From Candidatus Saccharimonadota bacterium (lineage in GTDB: Bacteria; Patescibacteriota; Saccharimonadia; Saccharimonadales; Saccharimonadaceae), in the NCBI GenBank assembly GCA_017406905.1, contig JAFQXN010000006.1:62001-126000 (forward strand): a DNA stretch of 64,000 bases. Reading direction: 5' to 3'. Made by a program: the position numbers and the translations under genes. Shown here piece by piece: positions 1,065 to 62,468 of this stretch; position 1 is the stretch's first letter; each line of letters opens with the position of its first letter. The notes under the pieces were generated by a model. The model was not told the origin of the DNA, did no database searches, and saw nothing but the letters and a program-made list of their open reading frames with translations.

Positions 1065-2146
1065 AGATGCCTCCTTTTCTTTCTAGCCTTTTCCACCACC
1101 AGATCTTTCATATACCCCATACGCGAAATTACTAAATCATGCGCTGGCACAAATTCTACCACTTTTCCGCCAAACCCAGTCTTAAATGTCGTCACCCCAG
1201 AATAACGATGCCCTGGCTGGCCGGCCGGTGCAATCCCCCACAGATTGAATCTCTCATAACCTTCGCTCTTTAGGTCTCTCATCGCCTGCCACAACAGCGC
1301 GTATGCTCCAGGTAATTTTCTATTTAATAACGTTGAAGCTGCCTCGTAATAATCTCCCTCGCGACCACTCTTTACTATCAACCCATACGCTATTGGCTCC
1401 CCGCCCCTGTTTTGCGGAGTTTTCATAGGCGCTTCCTTCGCGCCATTATCTGTTTTGTCTGAAGTTCTTGCTACATAAATCTCAATCTTATCACCAAATG
1501 CTTCTCTCTCTGCCATTAATGTCTTTAAATTCGGTGGAACGAAGTTTTGCCGTCTCGCCGTCTCTACTTGTACTTCATGAAATTCCTTAAAAATCTCCTC
1601 TGTCCTCTCTCTATGAACTTTTATGCCAATTTTCTCCGCTCGCCTTACCTCATATCTTGTCTGCCTACGCATCTCGGCCAGTAGCTCCTCCTCTTCATGC
1701 TTCAAATCTATCATTACTGTATGCTCTGCCGCTAGATGCATCGGCGATTTTTTTAACCCTAAATCTGCCAGAATCTTCAAATTCTTAGAATTTGACTCTA
1801 GCTGCGGCCTTACCCGCACAAATACACATTTTTCTCTCTTAGCAACTTCTGCAATTCTGTCAAATACCCTTTTCACCGCTTCTTTATCTCCCCAATCTAC
1901 CAGGGGCCCACATGGTACCTCTAAGTATCTCCCCCTCTTCGCATCTCTGACTATCAAAATCGCCCATCCAAATCCGCCAAAATCTTCCGCTACTACCTTT
2001 GCGCCCAAAATCTCATTCATTTTGCCATATTCTATTGACTGCAAAAAATTCGCCTCAGGAAATCTTTCCACAATCTTTCCCCAATCTTCCGAGGTGCATT
2101 TATCTAGCGTTACGCCACCTTCGCTGCCGTATATAATCTCACTCAT
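1061..2146 (-). CDS. FemAB/FemX-family peptidyltransferase, first copy, with in-frame repeat insertion
   Basis: 361 residues, paralogous to the next gene (shared ANFLQS, GPLVDWGD, RPQL, YERFNLWGIAP blocks). Likely adds one residue of the peptidoglycan bridge. It starts at ATG after a strong AAGGAGG site inside the end of the DegT-like gene. Residues about 228-250 (TSDKTDNGAKEAPMKTPQN and following) have no counterpart in the second copy. They are encoded by a family A palindromic repeat at 1402-1445, inserted without breaking the frame between two conserved strands. The gene therefore appears functional but carries a peptide of mobile origin. Confidence 0.85.
   Translation of the reverse strand: MSEIIYGSEGGVTLDKCTSEDWGKIVERFPEANFLQSIEYGKMNEILGAKVVAEDFGGFGWAILIVRDAKRGRYLEVPCGPLVDWGDKEAVKRVFDRIAEVAKREKCVFVRVRPQLESNSKNLKILADLGLKKSPMHLAAEHTVMIDLKHEEEELLAEMRRQTRYEVRRAEKIGIKVHRERTEEIFKEFHEVQVETARRQNFVPPNLKTLMAEREAFGDKIEIYVARTSDKTDNGAKEAPMKTPQNRGGEPIAYGLIVKSGREGDYYEAASTLLNRKLPGAYALLWQAMRDLKSEGYERFNLWGIAPAGQPGHRYSGVTTFKTGFGGKVVEFVPAHDLVISRMGYMKDLVVEKARKKRRHL
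1402..1445. repeat. Family A palindromic repeat, copy 1 (inside femAB gene)
   Basis: On the plus strand it has left arm CCCCTGT, core GCGGAGTTTTCATAGGCGC and then a small hairpin GGCGC-ttccttc-GCGCC. The stretch from the left arm through the core is nearly identical to copy 2 at 32506-32541. In the coding frame it reads APMKTP. Confidence 0.75.
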
Positions 2147-3329
2147 CCACCTCCTTTTCTAAGTAATCTTTTATGATTTTACGCGCTGGTTCCAGCTCGC
2201 GCTTACTGTAATAAGTTGGAAAATTGATGATTTTACCCGCTACTTCCGTGGATACTGGGCAGGCTTGTTCGTCAAAATGCACCTTTTTGTAATATCTCTC
2301 TGGAGATACTGGCTTTTCATACCAGAACCCACCAAAATAATACCCGGATTTCTCTAACCGCTTCAATACTTCATTTCTATCCCTCACTAAATAAAATTCC
2401 CTAATCGGTGGCTCACCAGATCTTTTTAGGCTCCGTATCTGTCCGAGCGCCATCTTTGCCTCAAATTTACTTATTTTACGCGTCAAATCCAACTTATTAT
2501 CCGCTGATTTCTCCACCCAGTGCATCGCCAACAAAAGCCGCATCAAGGCGCCGTTCAAATGGATATAAGATAATCCTCGGTACATCGCTCCAAACAATGG
2601 ATAAAATCTCACTCTCAGCGCATCAGACGGTCTCGGAGTTTTACTAGGCGCTTGAATCGCATTTTTACAGGGGTGACGCAAAATCACCGCACCGCCAGAG
2701 ATTGTATCAATAGACTTTTCCTTGCCAAAAGACAACGCCGTTGCCGCCCCTATAGTGCCGGCCTCTCGGCCGTCTGCGTACTTCACTCCAGTACAGTGCG
2801 CCAAATCCTCAATTATCGTCAATCCATGTTTTTCGGCAAACTTCTCTATCGCGACAATATCCACCGGATTCCCGAGCGTATTCTGAACAATTATGCCCTT
2901 CACCTTGTCTGGTGCAGTATCAACTGCGGCGTGCCCTTCGGGCACGCTCCGGGCCGCTCTGGCCGAGTCCTCATGTCCCGCAGAGCAAGTCGCAGTTAAT
3001 ACTGCACCGATGCTGCAAACATCAAAATTCAAATCCTTACGTGAAATATCTGCAAATATCGGCACTAGCCCCGCCGCTTTCACCGCCTCATATACCGCAT
3101 AACATGTAAAACCATTCACGATTATCGCATCACCCCTATTAAAATATGCCTTTAAGGCCAAAGCCAAACTAGAACGCCCATTTTTACATAAAATCGCCTC
3201 ACCACCGTATTTAGCCTCCAGCAATCTCTTTAAATCTTCACAATCTTTTTTTCGTCCGATGGCAAAAGTATGCGCCCATCTTTGTCTCCTCGTATAATTT
3301 GCTGCCGCGCCTAAGAAATAATGCCTCAC
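2139..3329 (-). CDS. DegT/DnrJ/EryC1-family PLP aminotransferase with two in-frame palindromic insertions
   Basis: 396 residues. The family uses PLP to aminate sugars or related substrates; in this cluster it may make or modify a precursor used in wall assembly, but the substrate is unknown. Visible are KNGRSSLALALKAY near the N-terminus, IIEDLAHCTG (PLP-contacting Asp) and SFGKEKSID with the presumed Schiff-base lysine. It starts with GTG (GTGA overlap with the hydrolase stop) after AAGGAGG. Two segments are foreign to the family: about residues 108-139, encoded by the family B palindrome at 2913-3006, and about residues 219-232 (contains APSKTP), encoded by the family A repeat at 2634-2675. 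Both keep the frame open. Confidence 0.85.
   Translation of the reverse strand: MRHYFLGAAANYTRRQRWAHTFAIGRKKDCEDLKRLLEAKYGGEAILCKNGRSSLALALKAYFNRGDAIIVNGFTCYAVYEAVKAAGLVPIFADISRKDLNFDVCSIGAVLTATCSAGHEDSARAARSVPEGHAAVDTAPDKVKGIIVQNTLGNPVDIVAIEKFAEKHGLTIIEDLAHCTGVKYADGREAGTIGAATALSFGKEKSIDTISGGAVILRHPCKNAIQAPSKTPRPSDALRVRFYPLFGAMYRGLSYIHLNGALMRLLLAMHWVEKSADNKLDLTRKISKFEAKMALGQIRSLKRSGEPPIREFYLVRDRNEVLKRLEKSGYYFGGFWYEKPVSPERYYKKVHFDEQACPVSTEVAGKIINFPTYYSKRELEPARKIIKDYLEKEVDE
2634..2675. repeat. Family A palindromic repeat, copy 3 (inside degT-like gene)
   Basis: Plus strand: core CGGAGTTTTACTAGGCGCTT followed by the right arm CGCATTTTTACAGGGGTGA. The right arm is the reverse complement of the left arm of copy 2 (CACCCCTGTTTATGCG) apart from small changes. 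This copy therefore shows the half of the palindrome that copies 1 and 2 lack. Encodes APSKTP in the gene frame. Confidence 0.7.
2913..3006. repeat. Family B palindromic element, copy 1 (inside degT-like gene)
   Basis: A 94-bp element bounded by 16-bp inverted ends, TGCAGTATCAACTGCG and CGCAGTTAATACTGCA, with one mismatch. Inside is a perfect hairpin, GCGTGCCC-ttc-GGGCACGC at 2929-2947, then a GC-rich core (CGCTCCGGGCCGCTC) also found in trmD in the opposite orientation. It adds about 31 residues to the encoded protein. Confidence 0.8.
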
Positions 3330-30530: not shown

Positions 30531-30570
30531 AATACCCCTATTATACCACACCTGTATAACAGAGAGAATA

Positions 30571-30599
30571 TTGACAAATTATTGAACTTGTGGTATAAT
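30571..30599 (+). promoter_or_regulatory. Promoter of the GH13-like gene
   Basis: TTGACA, 17 nt, TATAAT: exact consensus. Leader of about 50 nt with GGGAGG before the ATG. Confidence 0.9.
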
Positions 30600-30656
30600 G
30601 GGGGTATATCCTTGTACATTTTATAATTTTGCCGAAATAATAGGGAGGAATCTGAA

Positions 30657-59709: not shown

Positions 59710-61725
59710 CTAATTTAATGTTGTAATTTGCTGATATTTCGTAATCCCAGTCATTAACTCCTTATATTTTACCATGTTTTCCGAGTCTTGTAAAAATTTC
59801 TTTACATCCGCTTGTGCCCGGTGTATCAATCTTGTATCGGACAGCGTGGCAATACGTAAGTCTAAAGCCCCGTGCTGCAATGCTCCATAAATCTCCCCTG
59901 GGCCACGGAGTTTCAGATCCACTTCCGCCAGATAAAACCCATCGGATGATTTCTCCAACTCGCGCAATCTCCTTGAAGGTGACAAATCTCCAGAGGTCAA
60001 AAGATAGCAAAATGAAGCCGCCGAGCCACGCCCCACGCGCCCCCTTAGCTGATGCAGTTGTGCCAGCCCATAACTCTCTGCATTTTCAATTATCATCAGA
60101 GTAGAATTTGGCACATCTACCCCCACTTCCACCACTGTCGTAGATACCAAAATCTTGATTTCGCCCCTGGCAAACCGCTCCATTATCATATCTTTTTCTA
60201 TTGCTTTCATCCGCCCGTGCAAAAACTCAATCTCTACTCCAGGGAAATCCCTCTTTAACTTCTCGCAACGCGACTTTACAGAAGTGGTCTCTGTACGCGG
60301 ATCGTCATCTATTGCCTTGCAAATCCAATAAGCCTGTTGGCCCATTGCTAGAGTCTCGCGGATTTTTGGGTATAGACATTCCCTAGTCTCTACCTCAGTC
60401 ATTATACTAGTCTTAATCGGTTGTCGCCCCTTAGGCAGCTCATTTAATACCGACACGTCTAAATCTCCAAATACCGTTAGCTGCAAACTCCTCGGTATAG
60501 GAGTAGCGGTCATAGCTAACAAATGAGGGGCCAGCCCTTCGGGTGATTTTAACAGTAGTTTTTGTCTTTGTCCTACACCAAATCTGTGTTGCTCATCTAT
60601 TATCACTAAGGCGAGGTTTGCGAAATTCGTATCATCGGTCAAAATCGCGTGCGTCCCTATTACTAAATTGATTTTCCCAGAGGCAATCTCTTTTTTAAGC
60701 TCAGCCTTTCCTTTAGTCGCGCCAGTCAAAAGCGCCACTTTCACCCCAAATTTTTCTAATTTTTCCCTCAAATTCTCATAATGCTGAGTAGCTAAAATTG
60801 CCGTAGGTGCAAGCAATGCCACCTGATTGCCACTTAATGCCACCCCGTATGCCGCCAGGGCTGCCACCATAGTTTTACCGGAACCCACATCACCTTGTAG
60901 TAGGCGATTCATTGGGGTATCCTTCTCCATATTCTGAAAAATTTCCCAGGCCGCCAGCCTCTGCGCCCCTGTTAACTTAAAAGGCAAACTCGCCACAAAT
61001 TCTCTGATTTTTGGTGCCGAAAACGGTATCCGCATGGCTCTCAGCTTCTCATTTTCTTGTCTATTTAATTTTGATGCCAAAATTAGCTCAAATAGCTCTT
61101 CGTATGCCAGGTAATCCCTCGCATTTTTGGCCGTTTCTAATGAATTTGGAAAATGCACATAAAACAAGGCGTCTCGCCTTGCCCCAGTCCTCACGGTAGG
61201 TAGTAAATCGGGTATTTCGGCAAATTTATCGCGTACATTTGACATCAAACGTCTGAAGTCATATGATTTAATTGCTCCGTGAGCCACGTAGACTGGGCTC
61301 AGGCCCGTAGAGGTATCAATCTCGGCTATTTCGGCGGCCGAAGGCGAAACTAGGCTATAACGCCCGTTTTTGAGCTCGTAATTACCAGTAAAATAGTATT
61401 CCTTCTCTGGTGAAAATTGTTTAATCCTGTAACTTTGGTTAAACCATATCACCCTCACCGCCCCTGTATCATCTCTTATTACCCCCTCGGTGATGGATAA
61501 ATTACGTCGCTGCGCCCTCCGCGTAGAAAGCGAATCTATTTTCCCCTTTATTACTACTTTTCCCGGCCTTAATTCTGCAATAGAGGTGGCAGCTTGATAA
61601 CTCTCATAATCTCTCGGTAAATTATAAAAAAAATCCCGCACCGTCCGAATCCCGTGTTTACGCAACAATTCAGCTCGCTTCGGCCCCACACCTTTCAAAG
61701 TCTCGACATCGCCAAGCCAATTCAT
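59710..61725 (-). CDS. recG: ATP-dependent DNA helicase RecG
   Basis: 671 residues. Restarts stalled forks and resolves junctions. GVGPKRAELLRKHGI and the OB wedge come first, then Walker A GDVGSGKT, DEQH box, MTATPIPRSL, and RGRVGRGSAASFCYLL with the C-terminal TRG motif. Overlaps trmD by ATGA. Confidence 0.97.
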   Translation of the reverse strand: MNWLGDVETLKGVGPKRAELLRKHGIRTVRDFFYNLPRDYESYQAATSIAELRPGKVVIKGKIDSLSTRRAQRRNLSITEGVIRDDTGAVRVIWFNQSYRIKQFSPEKEYYFTGNYELKNGRYSLVSPSAAEIAEIDTSTGLSPVYVAHGAIKSYDFRRLMSNVRDKFAEIPDLLPTVRTGARRDALFYVHFPNSLETAKNARDYLAYEELFELILASKLNRQENEKLRAMRIPFSAPKIREFVASLPFKLTGAQRLAAWEIFQNMEKDTPMNRLLQGDVGSGKTMVAALAAYGVALSGNQVALLAPTAILATQHYENLREKLEKFGVKVALLTGATKGKAELKKEIASGKINLVIGTHAILTDDTNFANLALVIIDEQHRFGVGQRQKLLLKSPEGLAPHLLAMTATPIPRSLQLTVFGDLDVSVLNELPKGRQPIKTSIMTEVETRECLYPKIRETLAMGQQAYWICKAIDDDPRTETTSVKSRCEKLKRDFPGVEIEFLHGRMKAIEKDMIMERFARGEIKILVSTTVVEVGVDVPNSTLMIIENAESYGLAQLHQLRGRVGRGSAASFCYLLTSGDLSPSRRLRELEKSSDGFYLAEVDLKLRGPGEIYGALQHGALDLRIATLSDTRLIHRAQADVKKFLQDSENMVKYKELMTGITKYQQITTLN

Positions 61726-62456
61726 GCTTTACCCGAATGTTCTTCGCGCCACTTCGCGATTTCTCCATGGTTCCCAGAGAGAAGTATGTCGGGCACTTTC
61801 ATCCCGCGAAAATCATAGGGCTTAGTGTATTGCGGATATTCCAAGTTGTCTCCATCTGAAAACGACTCAATCTCTGCCGATTGTGCGCCACCTAGTACTC
61901 CTGGTATTAACCTCACTACGCTATCTATAATAATCAGCGCCGGCAATTCCCCTCCAGTCAACACGTATTTCCCTAGCGAAATCTTATAATCCACGATAGA
62001 CAAAATCCGTTCGTCGTACCCCTCGTAGTGAGGGCATAGGATGATGTAATGTGTGGCAGGAGTGGCTGAAATGCCCTTTTCGAAGGGCCTAAGACTTGGG
62101 CGAGCGCCCCGGAGCGGCCCGAGAAAAGGGCATTCAGGCAGAACTCCTGCCATCCACTGCGCCATACTCTGATTCCACACCTCACCTACAGGGGTAGGCA
62201 AAATCACCTTCGCACTCGGATCCTTAGCTTTAACGGACTCAATAGCTGCAAACACCGGCTCACAACGTAACAACATTCCGTCACCACCTCCATAAGGCGT
62301 ATCATCTACGCTTCGGTGTGGCCCCAGTCCAAACTCACGTAAATCCACAAAATCAAACCCCGCCAGCCCTTTATCTACCGCCTTCCACATCATCGAAGTC
62401 TTTAGATATGGCTCTATTGCCTCCCGGAACAACGTAATAACAGTAAATTTAATCAT
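61722..62456 (-). CDS. trmD: tRNA (guanine(37)-N1)-methyltransferase with in-frame palindromic insertion
   Basis: 244 residues. VDDTPYGGGDGMLLR, EGYDERI, GKYVLTGGELPALIIIDSVVRLIPGVLG and the CPHYEG variant of the usual CGRYEG identify TrmD; Arg to His and Gly to Pro in that loop are unusual. About 30 residues between the PTPVGEVWNQSMAQWMA segment and HYIILC are encoded by the family B palindrome at 62054-62152, at the edge of the knot core. Leaderless promoter. Confidence 0.92.
   Translation of the reverse strand: MIKFTVITLFREAIEPYLKTSMMWKAVDKGLAGFDFVDLREFGLGPHRSVDDTPYGGGDGMLLRCEPVFAAIESVKAKDPSAKVILPTPVGEVWNQSMAQWMAGVLPECPFLGPLRGARPSLRPFEKGISATPATHYIILCPHYEGYDERILSIVDYKISLGKYVLTGGELPALIIIDSVVRLIPGVLGGAQSAEIESFSDGDNLEYPQYTKPYDFRGMKVPDILLSGNHGEIAKWREEHSGKA
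62054..62152. repeat. Family B palindromic element, copy 2 (inside trmD)
   Basis: About 99 bp. Outer arms TGGCAGGAGT and ACTCCTGCCA, then AAATGCCCTTTTC with GAAAAGGGCATT. The core in reverse complement (CGCTCCGGGGCGCTC) matches the degT copy (CGCTCCGGGCCGCTC). Confidence 0.8.
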
Positions 62457-62462
62457 GCCTCT

Positions 62463-62468
62463 ATTATA
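62463..62468 (-). promoter_or_regulatory. Leaderless-type promoter of trmD
   Basis: TGTGA then TATAAT, six bases before ATG 62456. Confidence 0.7.

Follow-up and report, generated by a model that had tools for sequence, protein, structure and literature searches.

The window, by which we mean the whole 64,000-nucleotide stretch that was analyzed, contains a gene of the DegT/DnrJ/EryC1 aminotransferase family, and inside this gene lies a long palindrome whose reading frame stays open. The parts of the palindrome are listed here together with those of a second copy found further along in the window.

2139..3329, minus strand: host gene degT, DegT/DnrJ/EryC1 aminotransferase family, 396 amino acids (PF01041, E 5e-29)
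2911..3008, minus strand: whole palindromic element, 98 bp, with its core on the minus strand in the same sense as the gene
2991..3008, minus strand: GGTGCAGTATTAACTGCG, the outer arm that comes first (5') in the sense of the gene, particular to this locus and encoding GAVLTA
2911..2928, minus strand: CGCAGTTGATACTGCACC, the outer arm that comes last (3') in the sense of the gene, particular to this locus and encoding AVDTAP
2936..2983, minus strand: conserved 48-nt apical core, degT copy, CTGCGGGACATGAGGACTCGGCCAGAGCGGCCCGGAGCGTGCCCGAAG (covariance model R1, 67 bits, E 1.2e-19)
2952..2964, minus strand: innermost hairpin of the core, degT copy, GGCC-AGAGC-GGCC
2929..2947, no strand assigned: perfect 8-bp hairpin GCGTGCCC-TTC-GGGCACGC in the degT element
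62054..62152, plus strand: second copy, inside trmD and antisense to it, with a core of a divergent subfamily that is matched at 62081-62124, and with arms at 62054-62081 and 62121-62152
61725..62468, minus strand: open frame holding the second copy, identified as trmD from the name given in the earlier note and from the residues HYIILCPHYEGYDER, without a family-library search

The inverted ends of 16 bp with a single mismatch that were described earlier are present as claimed (TGCAGTATCAACTGCG at 2913-2928 and CGCAGTTAATACTGCA at 2991-3006), the repeat being two bases longer on each side than first noted (GGTGCAGTATCAACTGCG/CGCAGTTAATACTGCACC, 2911-2928/2991-3008). Inward of these 18-bp ends the pairing continues imperfectly and gives arms of 32 nt that are 84% complementary, and the perfect eight-pair hairpin reported inside the element was found at 2929-2947. 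The frame is indeed open from 2139 to 3329 without interruption, the element making up residues 108-140 of the protein. The G+C content of the element is 64% compared with 46% in its flanks, its folding z-scores relative to shuffled sequence are -6.5 for the plus strand and -7.8 for the minus strand, and an 18-bp inverted pair of like quality and spacing appeared in none of three trials with first-order random sequences of the same composition. These data confirm that the degT palindrome is real and far beyond what chance would produce.

R1, a covariance model for which 28 copies of the core served as input, matched the window at exactly two places, 2936-2983 and 62081-62124. A family link between the degT and trmD elements had been proposed, and it is upheld by the model matching both (E 1e-19 and 5e-8, respectively). 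The tip of the trmD copy reads GGGC/GCCC where the degT copy has GGCC/GGCC, which is a compensated change. In the surroundings of the trmD copy (62035-62171) complementarity reaches outward, with 72% over 29 nt, and enters on both sides the codons for apparently conserved TrmD residues.

A conserved tip on private arms

Searching DNA and applying the core model gave nine copies in the genome from which the window comes, a 585-kb Saccharibacteria genome. They are located in tlyA, leuS, tsaD, lepA, degT and trmD and outside coding genes near rmuC and nusG (on their 3' sides), so that the refuting outcome named in the earlier note, trmD as the only further site, does not apply. Among 100 relatives examined, copies were present in 29 of the 60 genomes of the same genus and in none of the 40 from other genera of the order. 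Candidatus Nanosyncoccus alces belongs to this genus and has a copy in tlyA (L083), the surroundings of which read the same as those of the tlyA copy L019 of genome G001. An even sample of the phylum added one copy in each of two other Patescibacteria families (L370 and L371), each with arms of its own. A pattern scan of the GTDB species genomes returned at least 117 stretches; all the matches listed came from Candidatus Saccharibacteria or Bifidobacteriaceae, rare other carriers being possible, and a search of the class to which Bifidobacterium belongs gave convincing matches in Bifidobacterium only. Many Bifidobacterium genomes carry members of the family, placed between genes. The element search gave no match in viral contigs and none in phages or plasmids, and a phage or plasmid vehicle was rejected on this ground. 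A search of the literature on palindromes in Saccharibacteria or Bifidobacterium gave nothing relevant.

While the 48-nt core is strongly conserved over the 73 copies from the genus, the arms belong to their loci. The arm pairing score averaged 34.3 for the two arms of one copy, compared with 10.4 for arms taken from different copies and 10.7 for shuffled arms. Copies with identical cores in the same genome mostly have arms at chance likeness, as in the pairs L388/L404, L394/L395, L392/L393 and L015/L402 (0.40-0.57 against a shuffled median of 0.41). Since such copies have unlike arms, the arms did not come with the core from a donor. Copying from elsewhere in the genome was also considered and rejected for the degT arm in its own genome, where it has no second occurrence within two mismatches; within this scope, the result gives no support either to arms acting as guides to other DNA. 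The 16-bp ends described in the earlier note are private to the degT locus and no conserved ends of the element; it is the inside that is conserved. Exceptions with arms shared between dispersed copies are L018/L409 and the TTAAGCAT sub-family in genomes G043, G047 and G053, where the outermost 8-10 bp again look locus-specific by eye.

In the Saccharibacteria gene copies an inner stem of about 12 nt beyond the core is shared. The stem ends in Saccharibacteria lack a conserved border and cluster at a distance of 25-29 nt from the core, and weak complementarity is seen 30-75 nt outward from the cores (p 5e-9 to 8e-4). Often a TATAAT-like -10 box follows within a few bases of the end of an intergenic Saccharibacteria copy (L024, L063, L399, L412, L115), and L063 and L412 have TATAAT, in part inverted, in both outer flanks. 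At the copies beside tRNA genes, L029 and L138, a -10-like box is repeated in inverted form.

The Bifidobacterium copies have a sharper geometry. The stem outside GACCGT...GTC measures 26 bp in 65 and 27 bp in 22 of 112 Bifidobacterium-type copies, it is paired in about 94-99% at positions 4 to 22 and in 31% at position 27, and it ends with a G-C pair bordered by A (97%) and G (97%). At nearly every stem position 28-31 of 31 copies are paired, with up to six pair types, and the related copies L059, L251 and L290 show compensated changes. A single element at different stages, or put to different uses, may underlie the sharp geometry in Bifidobacterium and the loose one in Saccharibacteria. The elements of B. 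santillanense, B. callitrichos and B. rousetti (L276-L285) often come as inverted pairs separated by about 50-160 bp. At ddl the arms of two pair members look alike (L348-L350), and in genome G151 the ddl core is inverted between arms that resemble those of its relatives. Between nrdE and nrdF, genomes G145 and G109 differ in both cores and arms at the same position. No exact empty sites were found for the nrdE-nrdF and ddl copies in Bifidobacterium, these regions being too rearranged between species. The nrdE-nrdF region also holds a second Bifidobacterium hairpin family with the core GTTGCTCCTCGGTCGACGTACCTTCGTACGCCTTCCCTCGGTGCGCC (L329, L335, L337, L341, L343, L346), which by eye follows the same plan of a conserved tip and locus-specific arms.

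Copies carried in frame by protein genes

Open frames of at least 100 codons contain 46 of the 73 genus copies, a few of these frames being probably spurious. Scanning 20 of the host proteins with NCBIfam named IleS, TopA, exonuclease I, TlyA, a P-type ATPase, LeuS, UvrA, TatD, UvrB, GatA, XseA, LepA, MiaA, LysS, TsaD and Tgt, with two copies in a single Tgt gene. The host frames cross the copies in either orientation, and at least three frames of the element are in use (sense CSAEHKDLARAARSVSEGHA, antisense ACPSDTLRAALAKSSCSAEH, third frame PFGHAPGRSGQV), from which it follows that the encoded peptide is not a conserved trait. The suggestion made for degT, that the insertion was tolerated or selected for keeping the frame, therefore stands as far as the frame is kept; selection enters weakly, as the purging of frame-breaking copies from essential genes, and does not extend to the peptide.

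The insertion was said to interrupt a short link, and the reading as an insertion is supported by the DLNF-KGII linker of DegT, which varies in length and has 41 residues here, whereas in most of about 28 orthologues it has 9-22 and no element. The AlphaFold2 prediction with the insert present gives an unstructured loop for residues 115-137 (pLDDT < 50) in an otherwise confident fold (mean 83.5). GAVLTA, encoded by the 5' arm, falls within a predicted native helix (104-113), and AVDTAP, encoded by the 3' arm, has no secondary structure in the prediction. At the same DegT linker, genomes G052 and G058 have copies in antisense whose arms are different. For the G052 protein (L158) the prediction makes the antisense peptide TLRAALAKSLC a helix (132-142) where other members have the native TLEKVL helix, as though the insert had taken over from it; we take this as a lead only, as the alignment pairing both segments may have guided the prediction. 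The degT linker of G009 (L170) holds a coreless hairpin, GATACTTTCGGGC/GCCCGAAAGGTATTATC, the right arm of which encodes the conserved PKGIIV, which suggests that the hairpin is an inverted copy of native sequence.

Many congeners lack an element at the degT, tsaD and lepA sites; the comparison gave no two closely related genomes of which one has a filled site and the other its exact empty counterpart. In ileS and lepA removal of the core alone gives back the native linker length, while in tsaD the arms also look added. Linker length was for that reason abandoned as a test of whether arms are native, the answers from degT, tsaD, lepA and ileS being in conflict. The core family to which the palindromes at the ileS, lepA and tsaD linkers belong varies between species within the genus. 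Before KALIFDS in LepA (L186-L215) and YLLAWTTTPW in IleS (L430-L459), most species of the genus have in-frame palindromes of several other core families, one example in ileS being CGAGGGGCATCCGCGACGACGGGAGC...GTCCCGAG, and only a minority are empty. The tsaD genes of G047 (L217) and G009 (L236) share an orthologous antisense insert whose divergent core, GGACCATAAGCTYGRCCGAACGGCCTYGAGTGTGTCC, comes close to the subfamily GACCGTAAGCTTGGCCGAACGGCCTTGAGTGTGTC that Bifidobacterium also has.

How the palindromes may spread

Given the conserved core, the locus-specific paired arms, the many copies, the occurrence across phyla and the in-frame insertion in both orientations, all of which are observed, the degT element is very probably a member of a non-autonomous family of mobile palindromes. 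The empty degT, tsaD and lepA sites support mobility. The copying route and the machinery are what we infer from this pattern, and the family description taken together with arms formed by fold-back falls somewhat short of being probable.

The spreading unit would be the apical part of a long hairpin, that is the core of about 48 nt, together with about 12 nt of inner stem in the Saccharibacteria gene copies, and the outer stem would belong to the locus and not be inherited from the donor copy. Most likely the core would be copied into a new site as a folded single strand during DNA synthesis, whereupon its end would fold back and copy the adjoining target DNA, leaving target arm, core and an inverted copy of the target arm. 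Repair templated by the hairpin could later keep the drifting arms matched, and those insertions that keep an open frame in protein loops would survive as in-frame passengers. Fold-back is favored by the unrelated arms on identical cores and the residual outer complementarity, and by one DegT arm encoding part of a helix found in orthologues while the other does not. The PKGIIV arm of the coreless hairpin in G009 and the inverted -10-like box of L029 and L138 also support it. Against it are the conflicting linker lengths, with only the core added in ileS and lepA and the arms as well in tsaD, and the few dispersed copies with common arms mentioned above. The fixed 26-27 bp stem in Bifidobacterium, with its conserved A and G and its G-C end, likewise looks like a unit with its own boundaries and not like copied target.

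The ileS and lepA linkers, which return to native length without the core, could also be explained if long local hairpins existed beforehand and template switching or gene conversion passed the apical core from one to the next, the stems staying in place and drifting. One and the same linker with different core families according to species (ileS, lepA), or with both orientations (degT), fits such an exchange of cores, as do the nrdE-nrdF copies of G145 and G109 and the inverted ddl core of G151. It would however need a prior hairpin of 15-30 bp where most orthologues have none (degT, tsaD), and it leaves the narrow range of stem lengths unexplained, and we regard it as unlikely.

The Bifidobacterium stem, with near-complete pairing by many pair types, conserved borders and a sharp stop at position 27, could instead belong to an old functional structured element, an RNA or DNA hairpin in which core and stem length are selected and the stem drifts with compensation (L059/L251/L290), merely looking locus-specific. 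Against this speak identical cores with unrelated arms in one genome, presence and absence at loci differing between species, and the many copies that essential genes hold in one orientation or the other, as a regulatory role of an RNA is implausible there; we consider such an origin improbable. A known structured RNA was rejected, as cmscan of nine loci gave no Rfam family match at the element above the gathering score. The core looks by eye like the D-arm of a class II tRNA, but the pairing differs and a tRNA-like origin was set aside.

Small multi-copy hairpins, often in inverted pairs between genes as in B. santillanense, B. callitrichos and B. rousetti, recall REP/BIME or IS200-type hairpins moved by a Y1 (RAYT-like) transposase. 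This reading is largely refuted by the absence of Y1_Tnp (PF01797) from 10 of 11 carrier genomes tested, the window's organism included; in addition REP ends are conserved in sequence while the arms here are not, a GTAG-type conserved foot is absent, and copies occur in frame within genes, leaving it highly improbable. Ordinary gene sequence or an assembly artefact, which the mostly draft or metagenome assemblies might suggest, has a negligible probability in view of independent recovery in dozens of genomes, complete and isolate Bifidobacterium records among them, the 64% G+C in a 46% context and the empty sites in congeners.

Known palindromic repeats and significance

The closest comparison is with the Rickettsia palindromic elements (RPE), several families of palindromes of about 100-150 bp; in a reduced, host-dependent bacterium, genes unrelated to one another carry these in frame and are not destroyed by them (PMC10969869). 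The present family shares with them the in-frame occurrence in unrelated protein genes (46 of 73 genus copies), but RPE are described with a conserved encoded peptide, whereas several frames and both strands are used here with no one conserved peptide. The arms of RPE are conserved rather than made at the locus; the present family, which extends to Bifidobacterium, conserves the tip alone and has other arms at each locus. In its effect the Saccharibacteria element resembles RPE as described. Miniature inverted-repeat transposable elements (MITE) are similarly short, non-coding and dispersed, with inverted repeats and no enzyme of their own, but their terminal repeats match those of a parent transposon, whereas the terminal arms are the variable part here, alike between copies only in the TTAAGCAT sub-family and L018/L409. 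No parent transposon was found for the element and no mobilizing enzyme was identified for the family. As both the conserved peptide of RPE and the conserved terminal repeats of MITE failed, we do not class the element with either. The palindromic repeats of mitochondria (GC clusters in yeast; hairpins in sponges, placozoans and Volvox) are GC-rich hairpins for which no enzyme is known and which spread within genes as well as between them (PMC7813641), but their stems are much shorter and they are grouped by conserved stem sequence, in contrast to a conserved tip on a free stem.

In-frame palindromes have been thought of mainly as an oddity of Rickettsia and Wolbachia whose movement is not understood (see the review PMC10969869). 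The Saccharibacteria, tiny host-dependent bacteria of an unrelated lineage, now provide a second case, which is more extensive and has several families at each linker, and the pattern of an inherited tip with arms that seem to be made at the site is a clue to the mechanism. The palindromes also show a route by which short peptides enter loops of essential enzymes. The core common to both groups is a hint that gut Saccharibacteria and Actinomycetota may have exchanged DNA, and with Bifidobacterium there are cultivable hosts in which movement could be tested. Tentatively, and with more doubt than we attach to fold-back itself, the palindromes may represent a class of mobile DNA recognized by its folded shape, which would move only the tip of a hairpin, build its arms from each new site, comprise several unrelated core families on the same plan, be common to host-dependent Saccharibacteria and Bifidobacterium, and repeatedly add or swap peptide segments in essential proteins.

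Elsewhere in the window, at 30532-30607, a spacer of 38 nt is enclosed by a 19-bp inverted repeat (95%), and TGTGGTATAAT can be read on either strand; this is possibly a divergent promoter palindrome.
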